Part shown: positions 14,658 through 25,918 of the stretch, in pieces | Layout: each line of letters opens with the position of its first letter | Position numbering within the stretch: position 1 is the first letter of the stretch | NCBI GenBank assembly: GCA_020061125.1 | Contig: JAGUYV010000474.1 | Location: 1 to 26,106, forward strand | DNA: 26,106 nt | Reading direction: 5' to 3' | From: a bacterium | GTDB lineage: Bacteria; UBP15; UBA6099; DSWB01 | Made by a program: the position numbers and the translations under genes | Notes under the pieces: generated by a model | Database searches by the model: none | What the model saw: only the letters and a program-made list of their open reading frames with translations | Told to the model about the DNA's origin: nothing

Positions 14658-16271
14658 TCATTCGCTCTGGTATTTTTCTGGAATTGTTGGCGTTTTCCCT
14701 ATGGGAAAAGTGACAGCAAACTCGCTTCCATGATTTTCCCGGCTGCGGACCTTTATCTCCCCCGCATGATCCTTGACGATGCGCGTGACGATGGACAGGC
14801 CCAGTCCCGTGCCCACCTTTTCCAAGGCTATGGCGTTGGGCGCGCGGTGGAACACATCGAAGATTTTCGGCAGATCCTCCTCGGGAATGCCGATACCCGT
14901 GTCCTTGACCGTTACGATGACATTTTCGCCATCGTCCCCTGCGGTGACGCTCACCGCACCGCCGGGCGGCGTGTATTTGATGGCGTTGCCGATGATGTTC
15001 CGGAACACCTGCTCCATGTGGCCGGCGTCCGCATAGATCAACGGCAGCTCGTCTGGCACATTCACGGTCAGGCTCAAATTTCTGCGGTCAATGCGCGCGG
15101 CGAACGAGGTAAGCAGCGTGCGAAGTATGCCCGCAAGCTGTGTGGGTTGAAGCCGGCCTTCAGCCGTGCGTTTCTCCACTTTGGACAATTCCAGAAGATC
15201 CGAGATAAAGGCCAGAAGCTTGTCAATGTCCTCGTCCGCTCGACGCAGCATGTCCTTCTGCCGCGGGTTCAGTTCTCCGAGGATCTCCTCGAGCACCACG
15301 CTCATGCAGCTTTGCACTGCGGCAAGCGGCGAGCGCAAATCATGGTAGATGACCAGGGCCAGGTCGGACTTGACCTTTTCCGTCTTTTGTAAGTCTTCGA
15401 GCGCCTTGTTGAGTTCGGCGTTCACCTGTTCGAGCCGCGCCGTGGCGTCTCTAATTCGCTGCTCCATTTCCATTTTCCATTCCCGCAGGTCCTCTTCCTT
15501 GCGCTTCTTGAGGCGCATGGACATCATGTTGAAATACTGCGCGAGCCACCCGAGTTCATCCTTGTCGCCCACTGGGATGGAGTACCCATATTCGCCCGAG
15601 TGGATTCTACGCGTGCCCTCGATCAGCCGGTTGATGGCGGGGCGCACCGTGCGCTGCACAATGAATGTGGCGGCGCCGATCACGAGCAGAAAAGTGAACG
15701 CGCCGAATATAAAGGCGCGGTCGCGGTTGCGGGCCACCTTGGCGTCAATGTCCGCGATAGTGAAAACCATTTCCAGGGAACCGAGAACGGGCCTGTCCGG
15801 GCCGTGGCACCGGTGGCAGGATTCCTGATTGCGTATGGGAGTGGTGAGGACCAGTGAGCGTCCCGGGGGATTGCTGATGAGGCGAAGGTCCGCGCCGGGA
15901 GGCGCCTCGGATATTCCGTGCGCCATGGATGGGCTTGCGAACGGCCTGCCGCCCGTGCGCGCGGGTTTTCCGACTTCGTGGGGCGACGCCGAAAAATGCG
16001 CTACGCCTGATTCATCGAGGATCCGCACGCTCTGGATGCGCGTGGAAGTGGCCATATCGCGAACGATGGCCTGAATGTCGCGCGGCTGGCCGCGGGCCAT
16101 GGACCGGTACACATTCTGGGACACGATCTGGCTGGCGGCGTTAAGCGTGATGATGCGCTCTTCCAGGAGCTGGGCGTTGTGCGCGCGAATTCCAATCAAA
16201 GAATACACGCCCAGGCCCAGAATCATGGCCGCGCCCATGTACACAATGATTCTGATGCGCAGCTTTCTCAT
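14658..16271 (-). CDS. Sensor histidine kinase with periplasmic CxxCH heme motif
   Basis: A 537-residue inner-membrane kinase. TM1 spans about 8-28 and the periplasmic sensor about 30-185. TM2 spans about 187-205, HAMP about 206-258 and a coiled coil about 259-300. The H-box is YHDLRSPL with His310, and the ATPase domain has N-box NIIGNAIKYTPP near 425-436 and G-boxes DTGIGI and GTGLGLS. The periplasmic domain contains a single CHRCH (Cys152, Cys155, His156), the covalent c-heme attachment motif, suggesting a redox, O2 or NO sensor. Its layout fits the bacterial kinases that sense with a periplasmic heme c fold. It lies 16 bases after the response-regulator gene, which is probably its partner. 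It ends the metVF operon, so it could report on respiratory state to that pathway. Confidence 0.9.
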   Translation of the reverse strand: MRKLRIRIIVYMGAAMILGLGVYSLIGIRAHNAQLLEERIITLNAASQIVSQNVYRSMARGQPRDIQAIVRDMATSTRIQSVRILDESGVAHFSASPHEVGKPARTGGRPFASPSMAHGISEAPPGADLRLISNPPGRSLVLTTPIRNQESCHRCHGPDRPVLGSLEMVFTIADIDAKVARNRDRAFIFGAFTFLLVIGAATFIVQRTVRPAINRLIEGTRRIHSGEYGYSIPVGDKDELGWLAQYFNMMSMRLKKRKEEDLREWKMEMEQRIRDATARLEQVNAELNKALEDLQKTEKVKSDLALVIYHDLRSPLAAVQSCMSVVLEEILGELNPRQKDMLRRADEDIDKLLAFISDLLELSKVEKRTAEGRLQPTQLAGILRTLLTSFAARIDRRNLSLTVNVPDELPLIYADAGHMEQVFRNIIGNAIKYTPPGGAVSVTAGDDGENVIVTVKDTGIGIPEEDLPKIFDVFHRAPNAIALEKVGTGLGLSIVTRIVKDHAGEIKVRSRENHGSEFAVTFPIGKTPTIPEKYQSE

Positions 16272-16287
16272 GATGCCGCGCGCCGCT

Positions 16288-16671
16288 TCAAATCATCTGC
16301 TCGACCAGCTTGAGCAGTTCCGCGGGCTTCACGGGTTTTTCCACGAAGTCCTCGGCCAGCAGGGTCCGGCCCTGCGCGTGGGTCCATTCCGGCTCGTTGA
16401 GATGTTCGCCCACGCCCGAAAGAATGATGACCGGGATGCCCGCGCACACGGGATCTTTCTTGAGTTCCGCGCACGCCGCGTATCCGTGCTTCTTGCCCAT
16501 CATGATGTCGAGGATGATCAGGTCCGGCACTTCCTGCCGGGCCATTTCCACGCCGTCTTCTCCGTTGTAAGCCACGATCACATTGTAATCTTTGCTCAAC
16601 AGGGTGGCGCGCATGGCTTCAACCAGGTTTTCGTCGTCGTCCACGAGGAGGATTTTTTTGCTCGCGTTCAT
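16288..16671 (-). CDS. Single-domain response regulator
   Basis: A 127-residue receiver with no output domain. Acidic residues Asp11-Asp12-Asp13, phosphoacceptor Asp55 in ILDIMMGKKHG and Ser94 in IILSGVG are visible, as is the conserved lysine in VEKPVKP. A short insertion around EHLNEPEWTHAQGR precedes the last strand. The start at 16671 was chosen over 16698 because AGGAG lies seven bases upstream. It sits between metF (67-base gap) and the heme-motif kinase (16-base gap). With no DNA-binding domain, it must act by protein contact or phosphorelay. Confidence 0.85.
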   Translation of the reverse strand: MNASKKILLVDDDENLVEAMRATLLSKDYNVIVAYNGEDGVEMARQEVPDLIILDIMMGKKHGYAACAELKKDPVCAGIPVIILSGVGEHLNEPEWTHAQGRTLLAEDFVEKPVKPAELLKLVEQMI

Positions 16672-16738
16672 GGCGGGTCTCCTTTCGACCGGATTCAACA
16701 GCGGATACTTTCAAGCAACTCATGCGCAACCGCGGGCG

Positions 16739-17623
16739 TCACATGCCAGCAGCCGCCAGGATGTCCGGCACCACCTCCTCCTTGCCGATGGCCATGATGT
16801 GCACGCCGTCGCAGATTTTTTCCTCGCGCAATTCCCGGATCATGCGCCCGGCGATGCGGATGCCCGTCTTGAGCGCCTCGCCCTTGGGCGCGGCTTCGAG
16901 TTCGGCGATCAGTTCATCTGGCACGAAGATGCCCGGCACATTGGCGTTCATGTAACGCGCCATGCGCGCGGACACCAGCAGCACTATGCCGGCCAGAATT
17001 TTGACCTCGAACTGGCGCGCGAAGTCCATGAAGGCCCTGAAATTGTTGAGGTCGTAGATGGCCTGTGTCTGGAAAAATTCGGCGCCGGCCTGAATCTTTT
17101 TCTCGAATTTCAAAAGCTGCGGCTCAAGGGGATCGGCCTCGGGCGTGACGATGGCGCCCACGCAGAACTCCACCGGGCCGTCGAGATCATTGCCGCCCAG
17201 GTCCTTACCCGTTTCCAAATGCCGCACGGTGTGAAGCAGTTGCACGGATTCGAGATCGAACACGGCCTTGGCCTGCTTGTGGTCGCCGACCGGCACGGCG
17301 TCGCCCGTGAGGCACAGCACATTGCGCACGCCGCGCGAGTACGCGAACAGCAGGTCGGCCTGCAGGGCCAGACGGTTGCGGTCCCGGCAGGTCATTTGCA
17401 GAATCGGCTCGGCCCCCAGCTCCTTGACATTGAGGGTGCCGCCAAGGGAGGGAAAGCGCATGACCGAACTCTGGTTGTCGGTCACATTGAGCGCGTCCAC
17501 CCTGTCCTTGAGCAGCTCGATGTGGTGTTTCATGGGATCGAGATTCACGCCCTTGGGCGGGCCGATTTCGCTCGTGACCACGAATTTGCCGTCTTCCAGG
17601 GCCTGCTTGAATGCGGTGCTCAT
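16739..17623 (-). CDS. metF: 5,10-methylenetetrahydrofolate reductase, MetF
   Basis: A 294-residue FAD-dependent TIM-barrel enzyme interconverting methylene-THF and methyl-THF. The family N-terminus FVVTSEIGPPKG carries the catalytic glutamate (Glu19). NVTDNQSS and the LCLTGDAVP segment mark folate and flavin binding, and AEFFQTQAIYD is also conserved. The length matches the bacterial catalytic unit without the eukaryotic regulatory domain. It overlaps metV by four bases (ATGA), so the two proteins should be made in equal amounts. In acetogens MetF works with MetV rather than using NADH directly. Here redox subunits encoded upstream probably feed or drain it. Confidence 0.95.
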   Translation of the reverse strand: MSTAFKQALEDGKFVVTSEIGPPKGVNLDPMKHHIELLKDRVDALNVTDNQSSVMRFPSLGGTLNVKELGAEPILQMTCRDRNRLALQADLLFAYSRGVRNVLCLTGDAVPVGDHKQAKAVFDLESVQLLHTVRHLETGKDLGGNDLDGPVEFCVGAIVTPEADPLEPQLLKFEKKIQAGAEFFQTQAIYDLNNFRAFMDFARQFEVKILAGIVLLVSARMARYMNANVPGIFVPDELIAELEAAPKGEALKTGIRIAGRMIRELREEKICDGVHIMAIGKEEVVPDILAAAGM

Positions 17624-18285
17624 TGGGCTTCACTCCCTTGCAGCGGGATTTGGACCTTTCCGGGTTTGGAAACGGCCTGGTAATTTTTGGGCGGCTGGTA
17701 TTTGCGCATCCTGTCCAGGCGGCCCATGGCCTGGAGGCGGTTGTAGATCATCGCCCACGCACAGTCCGTGTCATTGCCAATTTCGCACTTGCCCTTGTTG
17801 GTGCCACCGCAGGGTCCGTTCAGCAACCCCTTGTGGCATGCGGTCACAGGACAGATTCCAGCGGTGTCTTCGAGCACGCATTCGCCGCACTGCATGCAGA
17901 TTTCGGAATACGACCCCACGGCCTGCTCCTTGCCCAGGAACAGGGTGTCGAGCGCGGGGATCACGGGCCGCATGAGCGTGGAGGCCAGGGTCTGCACGCC
18001 GAATGCGCAGGTCATGGCCAGAACCGCATCCGCGTCGTCGAAAGCATGTTTGTGATCGCGCACGGCCTGCGGAGACAGTTCGTCGCAGGCCGTGGGCACC
18101 ACCAGGGTTCCGGTCAACACCTTGCCCAGGGCCTGTAGAGATCGTTTCATGGAGGCCACCTGCTCCTGCCCGCCCGTGCGGCACATGGTGGCGCAGGTGC
18201 CGCAGCCCACGATGCACACCCCGGTGTCTCCGGCCAGGCTGTTCTCAATCTTGTCCATGTCTTTGAGGCGTGTGATGGTTTTCAT
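17620..18285 (-). CDS. metV: MetV, iron-sulfur/zinc partner of MetF
   Basis: A 221-residue cysteine-rich protein matching the methylene-THF reductase C-terminal-domain family (MetV). The N-terminal cluster Cys24, Cys28, Cys31 and Cys35 precedes a Rossmann-like middle. A second cluster follows at Cys130, Cys133, Cys136, Cys145 and Cys150, with further cysteines at 159, 167 and 175 (GLLNGPCGGTNKGKC is a family hallmark). MetV transfers electrons between MetF and an oxidoreductase partner in Wood-Ljungdahl organisms. GGGAGG lies nine bases before the ATG. The stop overlaps metF, and the NuoF-GltD fusion gene lies 34 bases upstream. Confidence 0.92.
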   Translation of the reverse strand: MKTITRLKDMDKIENSLAGDTGVCIVGCGTCATMCRTGGQEQVASMKRSLQALGKVLTGTLVVPTACDELSPQAVRDHKHAFDDADAVLAMTCAFGVQTLASTLMRPVIPALDTLFLGKEQAVGSYSEICMQCGECVLEDTAGICPVTACHKGLLNGPCGGTNKGKCEIGNDTDCAWAMIYNRLQAMGRLDRMRKYQPPKNYQAVSKPGKVQIPLQGSEAQ

Positions 18286-18319: not shown

Positions 18320-21300
18320 TCAGCGCTCCAGGTCGCAGCGCAGGCAACGATTCGCCTCGGCCAGAGCCTGTTCTTCAGTGAATCCGGTTTCCACTTCCGT
18401 GAAGCCCGAGGTTCGCAGCCCCATGGAGATTTTGCCTACGGCTTCGCGCGGCAGCGCTCCGGCATCATCTTCTCCGACAGGCGCAGCCGCTAGGGTCTCG
18501 ATGACTTTTTTTTCGTCCCGCAATTCCACGCGCGACGCATCCTTTCGCAAATACTTGTCAATGGCAAGAGCGCTGCGGTATCCCGCTGCGATTGCCTGAA
18601 TCACCATGCCGGGACCGCTCACGAAATCGCCGCCCGCGAATACGCCGGGCACATTGGTGGCCAGGGTGTTCGGGTCCACATCGAGCGTTTCCCAGCGCGT
18701 GCGTTCGAGCCGGCTGTCGCGCGGCAGAAACGACAGGTCAGGCGCCTGCCCCACGGCCATGATCACCGTGTCCGCGGGCGCCAGGGTTTCGCTGCCGGGC
18801 ACGGGCACGGGCCGCCTCCTGCCGCTCGCGTCCGCTTCTCCAAGTTCCATGCGGATGCACTCCAGGCCCGTGACCTTCCAGTTGCCGCTCGCGATGCGCG
18901 TGGGACTGGTGAGGAAATGGAACCGCACCCCTTCCTCGACCGCATCCTCGAACTCGACCTGTGACACCGGCATTTCCTCGCGCGAGCGGCGGTAGAACAC
19001 ATCCACGGATTTCGCCCCCAGGCGCAGGGCCGATCGGGCCGCGTCCATGGCCGTGTTGCCTCCGCCGATAACCACGCACCGTTCTCCCATGCGAACCTGT
19101 TTACCTGTCTTTACATCTCGCAGGAACGACAGTCCATAATAAAGGCCTTCAAGTCCCTCGATTTCTCCGGGGACGCCGATTTTCTGGCTGCGCTGCGCGC
19201 CCGCGCCGATGAACACCGCGGCGTATCCGTCTTTCATCAAATCTTCAACCGTGAAGTTGGCGTTGACCGGTGTGTTGTAGCGAATTTCCACGCCCCGGTT
19301 TTCGATGTATTTGATTTCGTTCTGGATGACCTCGTTCGGGAGCCGGTATTCGGGGATGGCCACGGAAAGCATGCCCCCTGCTACGGGCAAGGCCTCAAAC
19401 GCGGTCGTGCTGTAACCCATGCGCGCCAGGTGATACGCGCACGAAAGCCCCGTGGGACCTGCCCCAACTACGGCCACGCGCTCCGGATTCCTAACCGGGA
19501 ACGGCTCGGGCAGGCCGATGTAATTGTTGAAATACCAGTCCGCGGCGAACCGCTTGAGCGCGCGGATGGCCAGCGGCTCGTCCAGCTCGCCCCGTCGGCA
19601 TTTGACCTCGCAGGGATGATGGCAGATGCGGCCGCATATTGAGGGGAACGGATTGCGCTCCCGGATCAGTTCCACGGACTCGGTGTATTTCCCGGCGGCG
19701 ATGTATGCGATGTAATTGGGTACATCCACACCCACGGGGCATGCGTGCTGGCACGCGGAAATCACGAGCGCGTCGCACGACCCCGCAGCGCACCTTTTGT
19801 CGCGGATGTGCGCATCGTATTCGTCCCTGAAGAACCGGATGGTGGACAGCACGGGGTTGGGGCAGGTCTGGCCCAGGCCGCACAGGGCCGCGGCCTTCAC
19901 GGTCCTGGCGATGCGTTCGAGGCGCTCCACATCGCCCTCGCGCCCCTGCCCCTGGGTGATGCGCGTGAGGATGGTGAGCATCTGCTTGGTGCCGATTCGG
20001 CACGGCGAGCATTTGCCGCAGGACTCGGACTGCGTGAAGTTGGCGAAGAACCGCGTGATGTCCACCATGCAGGTATTCTCGTCCATGACCACCATGCCGC
20101 CGGACCCCATGATGGCGCCGATCTGCTGCAGGGTTCCATAATCAATGGGCATGTCCAGATGGCGCGCGGGCACGCACCCCCCGGACGGGCCGCCCATCTG
20201 CACGGCCTTGAACCTTCGGCCCTTGGGAATGCCGCCGCCAATGTCGAAGATCACATCGCGCATGCTGATGCCGATCGGCACTTCAACAAGCCCGGTGTTG
20301 TTGACTTTTCCGGTCAGGGAGAAAATTTTGGTGCCGCCGCTGGCTTCGGTGCCCAGAGCCGCGTACCAGGCCGCGCCCCGGTTGATGATGGTGGCGATGT
20401 TGGCCAGGGTTTCCACATTGTTGATGCATGTGGGCCTGCCCCACAGGCCCGAATTGGCCGGAAACGGAGGCCGGGGACGGGGCATGCCGCGCTTGCCCTC
20501 GATGGATGCGATGAGCGCGGTCTCTTCGCCGCACACAAACGCGCCCGCTCCTTCCTTGATTGTGATGTCGAAACAGAAATTGGTCCCAAGAATATTGTCC
20601 CCGAGCAGACCGGATTCGCGCGCCTGTGCAATAGCCACGCGCAGATTGGCCACGGCCAGCGGATATTCGGCACGCACATAGATGTACCCGTGCGCATCGC
20701 CGATGGCGTACGCGGCGATGGCCATGCCCTCGAGCACCAGGTGCGGGTTGCCTTCAAGAACGCTGCGATCCATGAACGCCCCCGGATCGCCCTCGTCCCC
20801 GTTGCAGATCAGATACTTGACCCGGCCCGGCGCTTTTCGGGTGAACTCCCATTTCATGCCCGTGGGAAACCCCGCGCCGCCGCGGCCACGCAGTTTTGCG
20901 TCCTTGATTTCCTGTATCACATCCTCCGGGGACATTCCCGTGAGCGTTTTGGTGAGCGCCGAGTAACCTCCGCGCGCGATGTAATCCTCGATACTGCGCG
21001 GATCAATAAGCCCGTTGTCCGCGAACACGATCCGCTTCTGTTTTTCGTAGAACGGGATCTCCTCTTCGAGGCGCACCTGCCGGCCCGACGCCGGGTCCGT
21101 GTACAGCAGGCGCGGCACCACATTCTTCTTGATCACGGTTTCATAGATGATTTCCTTGACATCTTCCTCGGAAACACCGCAGTAGTACACGCCCATGGGA
21201 TGGATGACCAGGTTCGGCCCGTTTTCGCAGAACCCGTGGCATCCGGTTTCCATGACATCCACTTTGTCCGCCAGCCCGGCGCGCTGTACTTCGAGACGCA

Positions 21301-21442
21301 GGGCCGCCAGCACGGGTTCGCTGCCGAAAGCGCGGCAGCCCGTTCCGCCGCACAGAGCGATGCAGGGTTTGGACGGGTCGCGGCGGCGCGCCAGGGTTTC
21401 GCGCAGGGACAGCAGTTCCGATGGCGAGGTCAGCATTTTCAT
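18320..21442 (-). CDS. NuoF-type NADH/FMN subunit fused to GltD/NfnB-type oxidoreductase
   Basis: A 1040-residue fusion. Residues about 24-105 form a thioredoxin-like [2Fe-2S] domain (Cys31, Cys36, Cys68, Cys72). About 140-540 is a NuoF/HndC-like core with FMN/NADH motif GRGGAGFPTG (186-195), CGEET near 304 and a [4Fe-4S] site (Cys475, Cys478, Cys481, Cys521). About 550-1040 is a GltD-like half with clustered cysteines at 551-615, FAD motif GAGPTG (660-665), a second nucleotide motif GGGNTAMDAA (793-802) and a CLRC tail. One chain thus offers NAD and probably NADP sites plus two flavins, as in electron-bifurcating transhydrogenases (compare Nfn and the Sporomusa Stn type, from memory). The ATG has AAGGG upstream and lies 15 bases after nuoE. 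Confidence 0.93.
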   Translation of the reverse strand: MKMLTSPSELLSLRETLARRRDPSKPCIALCGGTGCRAFGSEPVLAALRLEVQRAGLADKVDVMETGCHGFCENGPNLVIHPMGVYYCGVSEEDVKEIIYETVIKKNVVPRLLYTDPASGRQVRLEEEIPFYEKQKRIVFADNGLIDPRSIEDYIARGGYSALTKTLTGMSPEDVIQEIKDAKLRGRGGAGFPTGMKWEFTRKAPGRVKYLICNGDEGDPGAFMDRSVLEGNPHLVLEGMAIAAYAIGDAHGYIYVRAEYPLAVANLRVAIAQARESGLLGDNILGTNFCFDITIKEGAGAFVCGEETALIASIEGKRGMPRPRPPFPANSGLWGRPTCINNVETLANIATIINRGAAWYAALGTEASGGTKIFSLTGKVNNTGLVEVPIGISMRDVIFDIGGGIPKGRRFKAVQMGGPSGGCVPARHLDMPIDYGTLQQIGAIMGSGGMVVMDENTCMVDITRFFANFTQSESCGKCSPCRIGTKQMLTILTRITQGQGREGDVERLERIARTVKAAALCGLGQTCPNPVLSTIRFFRDEYDAHIRDKRCAAGSCDALVISACQHACPVGVDVPNYIAYIAAGKYTESVELIRERNPFPSICGRICHHPCEVKCRRGELDEPLAIRALKRFAADWYFNNYIGLPEPFPVRNPERVAVVGAGPTGLSCAYHLARMGYSTTAFEALPVAGGMLSVAIPEYRLPNEVIQNEIKYIENRGVEIRYNTPVNANFTVEDLMKDGYAAVFIGAGAQRSQKIGVPGEIEGLEGLYYGLSFLRDVKTGKQVRMGERCVVIGGGNTAMDAARSALRLGAKSVDVFYRRSREEMPVSQVEFEDAVEEGVRFHFLTSPTRIASGNWKVTGLECIRMELGEADASGRRRPVPVPGSETLAPADTVIMAVGQAPDLSFLPRDSRLERTRWETLDVDPNTLATNVPGVFAGGDFVSGPGMVIQAIAAGYRSALAIDKYLRKDASRVELRDEKKVIETLAAAPVGEDDAGALPREAVGKISMGLRTSGFTEVETGFTEEQALAEANRCLRCDLER

Positions 21443-21457
21443 GGATTCGGCCCTTTC

Positions 21458-21949
21458 TCACCGGCTCGCGTACTGGGACAGCACCGCGGCGATTTTTTTG
21501 GGGTTCATTTTGCCGTAATAGGAATGGTTGACCACCATCACGGGCGACAGGGCGCACGCGCCCAGGCACGCCACGGTCTCCAGGCTGAACCGGAAATCCG
21601 CCGTGGTTTCCCCGTCCTGGATGCCCAGTTCATTTTGAATCAGTTGCAGGATTTTTTTGCCCCCGCGCACATGGCACGCGGTGCCCCGGCACACGCGCAC
21701 CACATTGCGTCCGCGCGGCGCCGTGTAGAACTGGGAATAAAAAGTAATCACCCCGAACACCTGGCTTGGAAACAGCCCGAGCGCCCCGGCCACGCTGTCC
21801 ACGGCGTCTCGCGGAATGTATCCGCACTCCTCCTGAACCTGCTGCAGCAACGGAATGAGCGACGACTGGTCTCGCGGGAAACCGGCGATGATTTCCCGCA
21901 GCGCTTGCTGTGAAATTCCCGGCGCTTCCGGCGCGGTTTGCACTGGCAT
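21458..21949 (-). CDS. NuoE-type [2Fe-2S] subunit
   Basis: A 163-residue NuoE/HydC-like protein with an N-terminal helical domain (about 15-75) and a thioredoxin-like ferredoxin domain. [2Fe-2S] ligands are seen in CRGTAC and CLGAC, the usual Cx4C plus Cx3C pattern. It normally pairs with a NuoF subunit in NADH-oxidising complexes, and the NuoF-GltD fusion is encoded 15 bases downstream. The start at 21949 has AGAGG five bases upstream and shares one base with the FdhA-like stop codon (TGATG). Upstream in-frame starts lie inside that gene. The tight coupling suggests a fixed-stoichiometry complex. Confidence 0.93.
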   Translation of the reverse strand: MPVQTAPEAPGISQQALREIIAGFPRDQSSLIPLLQQVQEECGYIPRDAVDSVAGALGLFPSQVFGVITFYSQFYTAPRGRNVVRVCRGTACHVRGGKKILQLIQNELGIQDGETTADFRFSLETVACLGACALSPVMVVNHSYYGKMNPKKIAAVLSQYASR

Positions 21950-24633
21950 CACATCCTCTCGATTTGCACGGCGCACATTTTGCGGTTCGGGGTTCTGGTG
22001 ACAACATCCAGTTGCGTGGAGAACAGGGAATTGACCTCGGCCGCGGACATGGAAACCGGCACGAAGACCACGCTGCGCGGCAGGCCGGGAGTGATTCTGG
22101 CGGGCAGTTCCATGGACCCGGCGCGCGAGACGATTTTCACGCGCTGCCCGTCGGCTACGGCCAGGCCCTCGGCGTCTTCGGCCCCGATCTCCAGGAAACA
22201 TTCGGGAAACATTTCCTTGAGTTGCTTCGAGTGCATTGTGCGCGCGCCGCTTCCAAAGTGGTAAAGATGAGAACGGGTGATCAGCGAAAACGGGAAGTTC
22301 ATGTCCGTTTCTTCATCGGGCACCAGGTATTCCACTTTCATGAACTGCGCGCGGTCCCGGTGAGGGAACGCGTGTTCATAGAGCACGGGGCTGCCCGCGT
22401 GATCGGCGTTCTCGCAGGGCCAGTGCAGGGTCTGGCGCTCCAGCCGCGCGTAGGAAACCCCGGCGTATATGGGTGCAGCGCGCGCGATTTCGGCCATGAT
22501 GTCCGCTGGTGATTTGTACTCCGCGGGCAGGCCCATGCGGCGGCACAGGTCTGAAAGCACCTGCCACTCGGCACGGCTCTGTCCGGGCGGATCCACGGCT
22601 TTGCGCACGCGCTGAATGCGGCGCTCGGCGCTTGTGAATGTGCCGTCCTTTTCCGCGAAACACGCCACGGGCAATACCACATGCGCGAGGTTCGTGGTGG
22701 GTGTGGGGAAGATGTCGAGGGCCACAAAGAAGTCCAGAGATTCGAGCGCTTTCTTCATAGTTGTGGAATCCGCGAATACGGCCACGGGATTTGCGCCCAC
22801 ATTCATGATGGCGCGGATGCCGCCAGCCGCGGCCTGTGAGATGATCTCCACGCCCGTAAGCCCGTCCCCCGCGGGCGGCGCCACGCCCCATAATTTTTCA
22901 AGATCCGCGCGCGCTTCGGGGTCCGACACTTTGCGGTATCCGGGCAGGTAATCCGGCAACACGCCCATGTCGCATGCGCCCTGCCCGTTGTTTTCCTTGA
23001 CCAGCGGATACACGCCCACGCCCGGACGCCCTATGTTGCCCGTGGCCATGGCCAGGTTGGCGATGGCCAGCACCGAATATGTGGCGTTGGGATAGTGCGT
23101 GATGCCGGAACCGTAGATGATGCAAGCGGCGTCCGCTCCGGCGAATATGCGCGCGGCCTCCAGGATCTGCTCCTCGGGGATGCCCGTAACCTTGGCCGCA
23201 TACGCGGGCGGATAGCGCCGGGCGCATTCGAGCAGCTTGTCCAGCCCGTCAACGCGTTCGCGCACGAAATCCTTGTCGTACAGGTTTTCATCCATAATCA
23301 CGCGCAGCATGGCGTTGACCAGCGCGATGTCCGTGCCCGGCGCCGGGCGGAGCCACAGGTGCGCGAACGGTGTCATGCGGCTCTGGCGCGGATCGGCGAG
23401 CAGCAGTTTCGCGCCGTGGAAACGCGCCGCGCGCTTGATTTTCTGGGCGATGAGCGGATGCGATTCGTGCGGGTTCGCGCCAAGGCACAATATCACGCCG
23501 CTTTTTTCGATGTCCGCGATGGTTCCGGTCGCGCCGGGATATCCGAACGCCTTGGTCAAACCCACGATGTTCGGCGAAGTGGACATGCGCGCGCTGCTGC
23601 TGACATTGTTCGTGCCCACGGCCGCGCGCGCGAATTTCTGAATCAGATAATTCTCTTCGTTGGTGCAGCGGAACGAGCCGAACACGGCTATGCTGTCCGG
23701 GCCGCTCTGCTCCCTGATTTGCGTGAGCCTGTGCGCGATCAGATCCAGGGCCGCATCCCACGACGCCTGTTTAAAGGATCCATTTTCTTTAATGAGCGGA
23801 ACCGTGAGCCGTTCGGGGTTGTGAATGTAGTCATGGCCGTAATGGCCTCGCACGCACAGGGACGCGCCGTTCACGGAGTTTTCCTCGTTCGGCTCAACGG
23901 ACATCACGCGGTTGTCGCGCGTCTGCAACATGATGGAACACCCGCTGCCGCAGAACGAGCACACCGTCGGGGTTTGCTCCAGGCCCGTTCCGCGGTACTG
24001 CCGCGTCTTCTCGGACAGAGCGCCCACGGGGCACAGGGTCACGCATGTGCCGCAGTATTCGCATGCGGCCTTGTCCAGAGGCATGTCGAACGGTGTGGCC
24101 GGCCGGGCGTTGAACCCGCGGCCCGCGAAGTCTATGGCCCCGATGACCTGGATCTCCTGGCACGCGCGCACGCACAAACCGCACATGATGCACTTGGTCA
24201 AATCCCGCTCGATGAATGCATTGGCGGTCTCGATTTCCGAAAATCGGCGGATGCGATCCATGTCAATGTCGCCAATGCCCAAATCCGCGGCCAGGGCGCG
24301 CAGCGCGCACGCGTTGCCCTTGTCGCACAGCACGCACGCCTCGGGATGGCTGGACAACAGCAGTTCTACCACGGTTCTTCGGGTTTCAAGCACGAGCGGG
24401 GAATCCGTGCGGATGGTCATGCCGGGCGCAATGGGCGTTACACATGACGCCACCAGCGCGTGTCGTGCTTCATCCTCGACCAGGCAAACGCGGCACGCGC
24501 CAAACGGCGCCACATGCGGGCTGTGGCACAGCGTGGGAATTTCTACGCCTGCCTCGCGCGCGAGTTCCAGTATGGTCATTCCGCTGCGGCCGCTGATTTC
24601 CTTGCCATTCAAAACGATAGTAATCGTTTCCAT
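21949..24633 (-). CDS. FdhA-like bis-MGD oxidoreductase lacking the formate catalytic residues
   Basis: An 894-residue protein with a NuoG-like N-terminus and a formate-dehydrogenase-like body. A [2Fe-2S] domain (Cys36, Cys47, Cys50, Cys64) is followed by a His-ligated cluster (His96, Cys100, Cys103, Cys109) and two [4Fe-4S] sets (Cys148/151/154/158 and Cys191/194/197/201). The body has its own [4Fe-4S] set (Cys225, Cys228, Cys232, Cys260) and aligns well with E. coli FdhF. However, the Mo/W-ligating Sec/Cys is Ser351, the next His is Thr352, and the Arg333 equivalent is Val545 (in VYPLVKENNGQGACDMG). The serine codon is TCC, so no recoding is hidden. Formate oxidation is therefore unlikely; Ser-ligated relatives include DMSO reductase. 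It is the first gene of the metVF operon, and the ATG has AGGGAG upstream. Confidence 0.9.
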   Translation of the reverse strand: METITIVLNGKEISGRSGMTILELAREAGVEIPTLCHSPHVAPFGACRVCLVEDEARHALVASCVTPIAPGMTIRTDSPLVLETRRTVVELLLSSHPEACVLCDKGNACALRALAADLGIGDIDMDRIRRFSEIETANAFIERDLTKCIMCGLCVRACQEIQVIGAIDFAGRGFNARPATPFDMPLDKAACEYCGTCVTLCPVGALSEKTRQYRGTGLEQTPTVCSFCGSGCSIMLQTRDNRVMSVEPNEENSVNGASLCVRGHYGHDYIHNPERLTVPLIKENGSFKQASWDAALDLIAHRLTQIREQSGPDSIAVFGSFRCTNEENYLIQKFARAAVGTNNVSSSARMSTSPNIVGLTKAFGYPGATGTIADIEKSGVILCLGANPHESHPLIAQKIKRAARFHGAKLLLADPRQSRMTPFAHLWLRPAPGTDIALVNAMLRVIMDENLYDKDFVRERVDGLDKLLECARRYPPAYAAKVTGIPEEQILEAARIFAGADAACIIYGSGITHYPNATYSVLAIANLAMATGNIGRPGVGVYPLVKENNGQGACDMGVLPDYLPGYRKVSDPEARADLEKLWGVAPPAGDGLTGVEIISQAAAGGIRAIMNVGANPVAVFADSTTMKKALESLDFFVALDIFPTPTTNLAHVVLPVACFAEKDGTFTSAERRIQRVRKAVDPPGQSRAEWQVLSDLCRRMGLPAEYKSPADIMAEIARAAPIYAGVSYARLERQTLHWPCENADHAGSPVLYEHAFPHRDRAQFMKVEYLVPDEETDMNFPFSLITRSHLYHFGSGARTMHSKQLKEMFPECFLEIGAEDAEGLAVADGQRVKIVSRAGSMELPARITPGLPRSVVFVPVSMSAAEVNSLFSTQLDVVTRTPNRKMCAVQIERM

Positions 24634-24854: not shown

Positions 24855-25304
24855 CTATGCGGGCTTGACTGCGCCGATGGACAACAGCACATTGGCGTAC
24901 CAGCCCTGGTCCGCGGTGGCGATGGTGAGCGCCACATCCTCGCCGCTGGCGGCCTCGTAAAAGCCGGGGATGTCCAGCTCTTCAAGATCCACGGCCGCGC
25001 CCTCGCGCTTGAAAATGGCGCGGAACTCGTCCCAAGCGGGCGGGTCGTTTCGCATTGCGTATGGTCCCTCGGACGCGGGTTTCATGACCGCCGCACCCTG
25101 TATGGGGATCGCGGACGCTACGGCGTCCAGCGCCTGCGCAACGGTGACCACGCCCGGCGACAGGTTCAGGCACACGAGCGCGGCGTTGGGGCCGAGCCGC
25201 GTGGAAAACGGGAAATTCCCGTCCGCGATCAGCACCTTGGCGTTGTGCCCGGCCGCGCCCAGCGCGGACAGTATTTCCGGATGCAGCAGTTTGTATTTGA
25301 GCAT
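24855..25304 (-). CDS. fucU: RbsD/FucU-family sugar mutarotase (FucU-like)
   Basis: A 149-residue cytosolic protein of the RbsD/FucU fold, which speeds interconversion of sugar anomers or ring forms. The N-terminal ALGAAGHNAKVLIADGNFP carries the family histidine and the following Asp, and the C-terminal FYEAASGEDVALTIATADQ leads into WYANVLLSIG, close to the E. coli FucU tail (Y-N-LL--G). The length fits FucU (about 140) slightly better than RbsD. L-fucose is the likely substrate, but this subfamily has mixed specificity and no fucose genes adjoin. GGGAGG lies seven bases upstream of the ATG. It lies 28 bases downstream of cobO, probably in one transcript. Confidence 0.82.
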   Translation of the reverse strand: MLKYKLLHPEILSALGAAGHNAKVLIADGNFPFSTRLGPNAALVCLNLSPGVVTVAQALDAVASAIPIQGAAVMKPASEGPYAMRNDPPAWDEFRAIFKREGAAVDLEELDIPGFYEAASGEDVALTIATADQGWYANVLLSIGAVKPA

Positions 25305-25332
25305 GATCCGCCTCCCTGTTCTTGGCGTCGCG

Positions 25333-25854
25333 TCAGAACTCGATGCCTTTCTGCGCCTTCACGCCCTGCTCGAACGGATGCTTGATCAGGGTCATCTCGG
25401 TGACCAAATCCGCCATGTCCACGAGTTGCGAATGCGCGCCCCGGCCCGTGACCGCCACATGCATCTCCGGCGGCCTGTTGCGCAGCGCGTCCGCCACGGT
25501 TTCGATCTCCAGCACGCCGTATGTAATCAGATAGGTCAGTTCGTCCAGGATGACCATGCCGTGCCGGTTTTCCGCGATCACGGACCGGGCCAGATCCCAG
25601 GCTTCGCGCGCCACGCGCTTGTCTTCCTCGATATTGTCCGACTGCCATGTGAATCCGCGGCCGCACACATGCCATTCCAGCAGGTCCTCGAACCGCTTTG
25701 CGGATTCCAGTTCGCCGTACTTCCACGATCCTTTAAGAAACTGGATCATGCACACGCGCATGCCCTGCCCCATGGCGCGGAACGCCATGCCCAGCGCGGC
25801 CGTGGTCTTGCCCTTGCCGTCGCCCGTGTTGATTATCAGCAAACCACTGGTCAT
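25333..25854 (-). CDS. cobO: Cob(I)yrinic acid a,c-diamide adenosyltransferase
   Basis: A 173-residue CobA/CobO/BtuR-type adenosyltransferase, which uses ATP to adenosylate Co(I) corrinoids on the way to adenosylcobalamin. The P-loop is GDGKGKTTAALG near residues 12-23, and MVILDELTYLI supplies the Walker B-like strand. QFLKGSWKYGELE and the late segments RNRPPE and VTGRGAH are also typical. The start at 25854 was chosen because GGAGG lies seven bases upstream; the longer in-frame form from 25887 begins in the promoter. It lies just downstream of cobT, so this is a cobalamin-synthesis locus continuing beyond the window. Corrinoids are also needed by methyl-THF pathways, which fits metVF nearby. 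Confidence 0.94.
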   Translation of the reverse strand: MTSGLLIINTGDGKGKTTAALGMAFRAMGQGMRVCMIQFLKGSWKYGELESAKRFEDLLEWHVCGRGFTWQSDNIEEDKRVAREAWDLARSVIAENRHGMVILDELTYLITYGVLEIETVADALRNRPPEMHVAVTGRGAHSQLVDMADLVTEMTLIKHPFEQGVKAQKGIEF

Positions 25855-25874
25855 GCACGCTCCTCCCGCTTTGC

Positions 25875-25918
25875 GTTCCATCGCCATATTATACTACCCT
25901 TGCCGCATGTGATGGAAC
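25875..25918 (-). promoter_or_regulatory. Promoter of cobO with bracketing inverted repeat
   Basis: A perfect minus-strand TATAAT (25888-25893) lies 34 bases before the cobO ATG, with start near 25881. The exact 8-bp inverted repeat GTTCCATC (25875-25882) / GATGGAAC (25911-25918) flanks it, one arm on the -35 position and one at the start site. The -35 itself is poor, which suggests activator dependence or repression through the repeat. No cobalamin riboswitch was recognised in this short gap. Confidence 0.5.

Follow-up and report, generated by a model that had tools for sequence, protein, structure and literature searches.

The window analysed here, that is, the whole stretch of 26,106 nucleotides, carries five consecutive genes on the reverse strand (Table 1), encoding a formate dehydrogenase (FDH)-like subunit termed FdhL, NuoE, a NuoF/GltD fusion protein, MetV and MetF. 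The genes are separated by gaps of 2, 15 and 34 bases, followed by a 4-base overlap of metV and metF. Adjacent metV and metF genes are as in MetVF-type methylene-tetrahydrofolate (THF) reductases (MTHFRs), and neither RnfC2, a subunit of type III MTHFR, nor HdrABC-MvhD of type IV is encoded in the window operon. Among solved PDB chains, no relative of MetV was found by sequence. Approximately 220 bases upstream of FdhL and on the same strand, a corrinoid adenosyltransferase gene (CobA/BtuR) and an RbsD/FucU-family gene are located (24855-25887).

Table 1 Features of the FdhL operon and its surroundings in the window
Feature	Position	Strand	Evidence or remark
FdhL, FDH-like subunit without catalytic triad, 894 aa	21949..24633	(-)	open ORF
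His96-Cys100-Cys103-Cys109 motif (A3/N5-type cluster), proposed exit towards MetV	24307..24348	(-)	32/32 in clade; constraint shift
FS0 (A5) cluster ligands C225, C228, C232, C260	23854..23961	(-)	kept in 32/32 of clade
R262 codon (CGA), replacing invariant Lys between FS0 and pterin	23848..23850	(-)	alignment, codon read-out
S351 (TCC) and T352 (ACT) codons, replacing Cys/Sec-His	23578..23583	(-)	phmmer alignment, codon read-out
V545 codon (GTC), replacing formate-binding Arg	22999..23001	(-)	phmmer alignment, codon read-out
NuoE/BfuC-like [2Fe-2S] subunit, 162 aa	21458..21946	(-)	PF01257, E=2.4e-52
NuoF-GltD fusion, 1040 aa: BfuB-like core (B1, B2, B5 ligands), then NfnL/GltD FAD-NADP(H) domain	18320..21442	(-)	
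MetV	17620..18285	(-)	PF12225, E=1.2e-35
MetF, 4 bp overlap with metV	16739..17623	(-)	PF02219, E=7.7e-37
Response regulator (16288-16698) and histidine kinase (14658-16271)	14658..16698	(-)	directly downstream of metF

In its fold and domain order, FdhL corresponds to the alpha subunit of NAD-linked FDHs: a [2Fe-2S], a His-Cys3 [4Fe-4S], two [4Fe-4S] and an FS0 [4Fe-4S] cluster motif are followed by a full Mo-bisMGD-type domain. The single-chain AlphaFold model (mean pLDDT 91.6) displays the complete FDH fold (Z 54.5 over 887 residues) and can be overlaid with ForCE1 from Bacillus subtilis and with R. capsulatus FDH over 887-888 residues at 1.7-1.9 Å, the latter structure (6tg9) giving a Z of 50.9 and an rmsd of 1.7 over 888 residues. 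By homology to the N5-type cluster, H96-C100-C103-C109 would be the ligands of cluster A3. As foreseen in the original prediction, automatic annotation would call the protein an FDH, given its match to NCBIfam TIGR01591 (formate dehydrogenase alpha) with 719.5 bits at a cut-off of 666.25. That prediction had also placed Sec140, His141 and Arg333 of E. coli FdhF, the catalytic triad, at Ser351 (TCC), Thr352 and Val545 of FdhL, with Fe-S ligands and flanking blocks intact. Both statements are confirmed by alignment: using phmmer, C386/H387 of R. capsulatus FDH (6tg9) align with S351/T352 and R587 with V545, the codons being TCC, ACT and GTC, and the window FdhL hence lacks the catalytic Cys/Sec-His-Arg of NAD-linked FDH alpha subunits. 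The loss is, however, wider than the triad reported earlier. The 61 canonical relatives share 58 fully invariant columns, of which the window FdhL has changed 11. Ten of these changes affect the pocket loops (D345S, C347S, C351S, H352T, H514Y, G517A, R545V, G546K, Q547E and V550G), while the eleventh, K262R, replaces the Lys between the last Fe-S cluster (FS0) and the pterin and is the sole change outside the pocket loops.

A pattern scan for FdhL relatives yielded two other loci with the same operon, both without the triad. MetF proved to be the better probe, with the window MetF being ~70% or more identical to its clade in many Deltaproteobacterial and Syntrophomonad-like genomes. The order FdhL-NuoE-NuoF/GltD-MetV-MetF and the strand are identical in all 33 loci long enough to tell, including the window, which represent three lineages of oxygen-avoiding bacteria: the small phylum of the window, a Deltaproteobacterial class and a Syntrophomonad-like class. 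MetF of this clade (E<=1e-105) was detected in 64 of 340 genomes of the Deltaproteobacterial and in 19 of 97 of the Syntrophomonad-like class. In the window phylum, 1 of 7 genomes examined carries this MetF, namely the window genome itself (a 79%-complete assembly of 513 contigs), and a broad sample of 386 genomes gave eight other MetFs at 58-64%, none of them with this operon. In a quick tree (no bootstraps) with active-site columns masked, 31 triad-less proteins form one clade with an SH-aLRT of 100; in the unmasked tree, the window FdhL (identity <=47% to other operon FdhLs) is the deepest branch of this clade. Likewise, 35 NuoF/GltD proteins from the operon, covering the same three lineages, group in one clade with a support of 100 (again a quick tree, no bootstraps). 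From these concordant clades, the five-gene unit seems to have been inherited together. An acetyl-CoA synthase domain is encoded in the window genome and in 18 of 19 Syntrophomonad-class carriers, an association which is uninformative because 80 of 97 genomes of that class encode such a domain anyway.

Several further genes accompany the operon or its parts. Response-regulator/histidine-kinase genes are found beside it in all three lineages (window 14658-16698; L218:9589-12472; L197:11125-11694; L202:1288-1932; L226:2254-3048), which suggests two-component control; the response regulator and histidine kinase of the window are possibly regulators outside the complex proposed below. A second MetF-like gene, 27-30% identical, lies directly upstream of FdhL at L060:449-1321, L197:10200-11072, L202:1981-2853 and ten other Deltaproteobacterial operon loci; its product keeps Glu19 and Asp108, while many otherwise invariant MetF residues are changed. 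Another gene order, MetV-MetF-NuoE-NuoF-FdhA, occurs at L040:3663-11661 and L189:1330-11000 (MetF-NuoE spacing of ~3 kb in L189) together with an intact Sec-His-Arg FDH, and MetVF may here be paired, in parallel, with an active FDH. At L120, L121, L124, L125 and L128, the gene for the NuoF/GltD fusion precedes one whose product resembles FdhL in its N-terminal 150-230 residues only; the NuoF/GltD module may thus pair with other catalytic partners, too.

The catalytic triad is missing in all 32 readable FdhLs of metVF operons and present in 61 of 61 canonical relatives, frequencies that are not population estimates because most operon copies were located via MetF and the live FDHs via FdhL. With the triad lost in 0/61 canonical relatives versus 32/32 operon homologues, its absence is not a matter of chance, and a lone mutant is ruled out by the recurrence of operon and triad loss across loci. 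A close homologue from the same operon with Cys/Sec-His-Arg, named in the original prediction as grounds for its rejection, was searched for and is not among the 32; the L040 and L189 proteins are no such case since they fall outside the triad-less clade and belong to another gene order. As to the check, suggested with that prediction, whether homologues beside metVF share Ser-Thr and Val, they share the absence of the triad but not the residues themselves. At least 20 combinations occupy the triad columns (e.g., S-T-V, Y-N-Q, S-G-A, N-G-A), with S, Y, N, C, F, G, L, M, E or R at the metal-ligand column and A, Q, V, L, I, S, T, H or F at the Arg column, and neither column has a conserved residue. 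Similarly, the predicted triple loss stands in that Cys/Sec-His-Arg are replaced, but Ser alone does not amount to loss of the metal ligand, as DMSO reductase-type enzymes use Ser in this role. Ser is present in only 5 of 32 clade members, and since it is not conserved, as it is in Ser-ligated DMSO reductase-type enzymes, a Ser-ligated metal in FdhL is unlikely and Ser as a conserved new ligand was rejected. A motif common to the triad-less clade, [RK]-[ED]-x-N, takes the place of G-Q-N-N. Elsewhere, an FdhA copy with Trp-His-Arg, Trp being at the Sec position (L022:4017-6683), has a tandem neighbour in which Sec-His-Arg is intact (L022:1136-3805). The window genome itself encodes, in an open frame of ~1374 aa (G000:C108; L193:1143-5213), a GltD-like part joined to an FdhA with intact Cys-His-Arg, and therefore has no need of FdhL for formate.

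Despite the altered pocket, FdhL is under purifying constraint. In six related pairs, dN/dS amounts to 0.12-0.21, with selection acting more strongly on the Fe-S than on the Mo part in each of the six. Ligands of all five Fe-S clusters are kept in every clade member except at column 158, one row stopping short of the [2Fe-2S] domain. At this column, 15 of the 32 triad-less proteins carry Asp in place of the fourth Cys of one [4Fe-4S] motif. The His-Cys3 (A3) ligands are found in 32/32 members of the triad-less clade versus 45-52 of 61 live FDHs. Relative to each protein's own mean, conservation in live FDHs is 1.47 for the Mo loops and lowest, 0.66, for the His-Cys3 region, whereas the triad-less clade displays 1.29 for the His-Cys3 region, 1.46 for the [4Fe-4S] pair and 0.92 for the Mo loops. 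The N-terminal Fe-S domain, above all the surroundings of the His-Cys3 cluster, has thus gained constraint at the expense of the Mo pocket. Hence, the earlier suggestion of a changed substrate or an electron-wiring scaffold rather than decay is supported, and pseudogene formation is refuted by the intact frame, the dN/dS of 0.12-0.21 and the retained Fe-S ligands. Between the two, a scaffold or wire is favoured because the triad columns vary freely and constraint has shifted to the Fe-S domain.

The neighbouring subunits resemble those of electron-bifurcating Bfu enzymes. NuoE is a thioredoxin-like [2Fe-2S] subunit of the BfuC kind (PF01257), and NuoF/GltD, whose NuoF part is best matched in the PDB by 7t2r_B (784 bits), possesses the FMN, SLBB, B1 and B5 features of BfuB. 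The B2 ligands of HydB (C438/C476(T)/H525/C531/C536) correspond to C458/T496/H545/C551/C556; C458, H545, C551 and C556 are conserved in 34/34 NuoF/GltD homologues and T496 in 33/34. The B2 His of BfuB has been described as absent from non-bifurcating homologues (PMC9304861). The C-terminal ferredoxin domain of BfuB (IPR017896; B3/B4), proposed to pass electrons to ferredoxin in Bfu enzymes, has no counterpart, as no Fer4 domain was found in the fusion and GltD (PF14691, PF07992) follows at residue 545. By the published definition, NuoF/GltD is therefore not a Bfu member, and its ferredoxin coupling is uncertain, though it may function like one. The GltD domain carries FAD/NAD(P) motifs and eight invariant Cys, which is enough for two predicted [4Fe-4S] clusters.

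Considering gene order and sequence features together, the five genes are proposed to encode one soluble complex built on MetVF, in which FdhL, NuoE and NuoF/GltD would supply the pyridine-nucleotide and ferredoxin end. FdhL probably serves as a non-catalytic wire between the NAD(P)H/ferredoxin-coupled NuoEF-GltD core and MetVF, all five proteins residing in one complex; we consider this proposal likely. An NAD-linked FDH of the bifurcating type would have contributed its alpha subunit as the ancestor of FdhL, which gave up formate chemistry while keeping structure and wiring. Electrons would travel along NuoF-FMN ↔ A1-A2-A3 of FdhL ↔ MetV ↔ MetF-flavin, most likely leaving FdhL at the His-Cys3 cluster (A3) as in HydABCSL. 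Docking of MetV at this cluster would be expected to raise the constraint around A3, as observed. Together with clusters A4/A5, the dead Mo domain would have been retained for scaffolding or oligomerisation. That the complex forms and bifurcates, that electrons exit at A3 and that the cofactor was lost are points that we infer. Against the proposal weigh the retained FS0 (A5) ligands, the replacement of the B3/B4 domain by GltD and the strong divergence of the window FdhL from the others. Given the B2 signature in NuoF, which is that of bifurcating Bfu enzymes, reversible coupling of CH2-THF/CH3-THF to NAD(P)H and ferredoxin together is probable. Based on reported potentials of -280 mV for NADH, -380 mV for NADPH and -500 mV for ferredoxin (PMC9304861) and of about -200 mV for CH3-THF (PMC6295475), NADPH-driven bifurcation to CH2-THF and ferredoxin would be downhill by ~30 mV per electron and the NADH-driven reaction uphill by ~70 mV, while NADH formation from CH3-THF and reduced ferredoxin would be downhill by ~70 mV per electron. 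Sites for both nucleotides would be fitting in an enzyme that works reversibly. More tentatively, and with a fair chance of being wrong, the complex may represent a fifth, bifurcating/confurcating MTHFR type with a dead FDH as wire, coupling NAD(H), NADP(H), ferredoxin and CH2-THF/CH3-THF.

Complex and wire could also be real without any bifurcation, yielding a plain NAD(P)H:methylene-THF reductase as in type III (MetVF-RnfC2). The type III enzyme of A. woodii indeed does not bifurcate (PMC8760232), and NuoF lacks the B3/B4 ferredoxin domain; yet the B2 ligands are kept, among them the His regarded as bifurcation-specific in BfuB, and the Cys residues of GltD would suffice for two [4Fe-4S] clusters, which makes this reading somewhat unlikely. 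We rate as unlikely that the operon encodes two co-regulated enzymes, a Stn/Nfn-like NuoEF-GltD-FdhL transhydrogenase and a stand-alone MetVF. StnABC of Sporomusa ovata is encoded beside metVF and was purified as a separate enzyme (PMC7483475), and none of the NuoF/GltD fusions fetched from other genomes has metVF beside it, but the strict five-gene order across lineages, the metV-metF overlap, the single co-inherited clades and the raised constraint around A3, a likely partner-docking site, speak for one unit. A still smaller probability is assigned to FdhL being a Mo/W enzyme with a new substrate, its metal held by Ser or another ligand. The complete fold, the alteration of only 11 of 58 invariant columns and the new shared motif agree with such an enzyme; given that the window FdhL retains the FS0 (A5) ligands and the majority of the residues fixed in live FDHs, a bound pterin and some Mo/W chemistry are possible. 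However, the metal-ligand and Arg columns have no conserved residue, conservation of the pocket loops is below average and MetVF already provides a catalytic module in the operon. Finally, although FdhL evolves faster than its neighbours and its Mo domain is relaxed, a relic retained by operon hitchhiking alone is hardly credible in view of the low dN/dS, Fe-S ligands invariant across three lineages and an intact FdhL in every operon covered to a sufficient length.

In both acetogens and acetate-oxidising syntrophs, the coupling between electron carriers and the methyl-THF step is still an open question (PMC8760232, PMC6295475). If real, the wired MetVF complex would be a candidate for the oxidation of CH3-THF coupled to NAD(P)H/ferredoxin; at the same time, many FdhA-NuoEF annotations in carrier genomes would be wrong and formate metabolism over-predicted there. 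The MTHFR types described so far, I-IV (PMC8760232), do not include the set of MetVF, NuoEF-GltD and FdhL, and no description of a MetVF-NuoEF-GltD-FdhA arrangement was found in the open-access literature searched. The main text of the Bfu survey makes no mention of MetF, and its selection required the BfuB ferredoxin domain, which the NuoF/GltD fusion lacks. While the parts are of known kinds, their combination and the use of a dead FDH as wire to MetVF thus appear undescribed in the open-access literature searched.

Acetogen-type MetF has no predicted NADH site, and MTHFR types III (MetVF-RnfC2) and IV (MetVF-HdrABC-MvhD) recruit extra NADH modules (PMC8760232). The window operon likewise combines a MetVF catalytic module with a recruited pyridine-nucleotide module, which here consists of NuoEF-GltD and a dead FDH instead. 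With Fdh-Bfu and FdsA-type NAD-linked FDHs (R. capsulatus, 6tg9), FdhL shares domain order, fold and partner subunits but not the Cys/Sec-His-Arg, and MetVF is added. An FDH-like protein reported to lack FDH activity, OmeA (CISM) of Dehalococcoides, has been proposed as hydrogenase-to-reductive dehalogenase connector (PMC5736913); in contrast to FdhL, it is a respiratory FDH-N-type subunit of a membrane-bound complex from an unrelated operon. StnABC from Sporomusa ovata comprises NuoE, NuoF, GltD and an inactive FdhF-like domain, the latter being part of StnC, a subunit that mediates tetramerisation (PMC10482914); although annotated as FDH, it showed no FDH activity (PMC7483475). In Stn, however, GltD is fused to the NuoG/FdhF-like subunit, here to NuoF, and MetVF subunits are absent from StnABC. 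A parallel in wiring is the bifurcating hydrogenase NiFe-HydABCSL of Acetomicrobium mobile (Type 3 Bfu), in whose solved structure HydA links HydBC to HydSL through A3 in the chain FMN-B1-A1-A2-A3-S1-[NiFe], while at the dimer interface the A4/A5 arm, which in FDHs leads to the Mo site, comes to a dead end (PMC8880783). Both systems share a NuoE/NuoF-like core and a NuoG/FDH-related A subunit without substrate chemistry, wiring this core to an added catalytic module, via A3 in HydABCSL and, as proposed, also here. In the window operon, by contrast, MetVF replaces HydSL, GltD replaces the ferredoxin domain of HydB and an FDH-type Mo domain is still complete in the A subunit.
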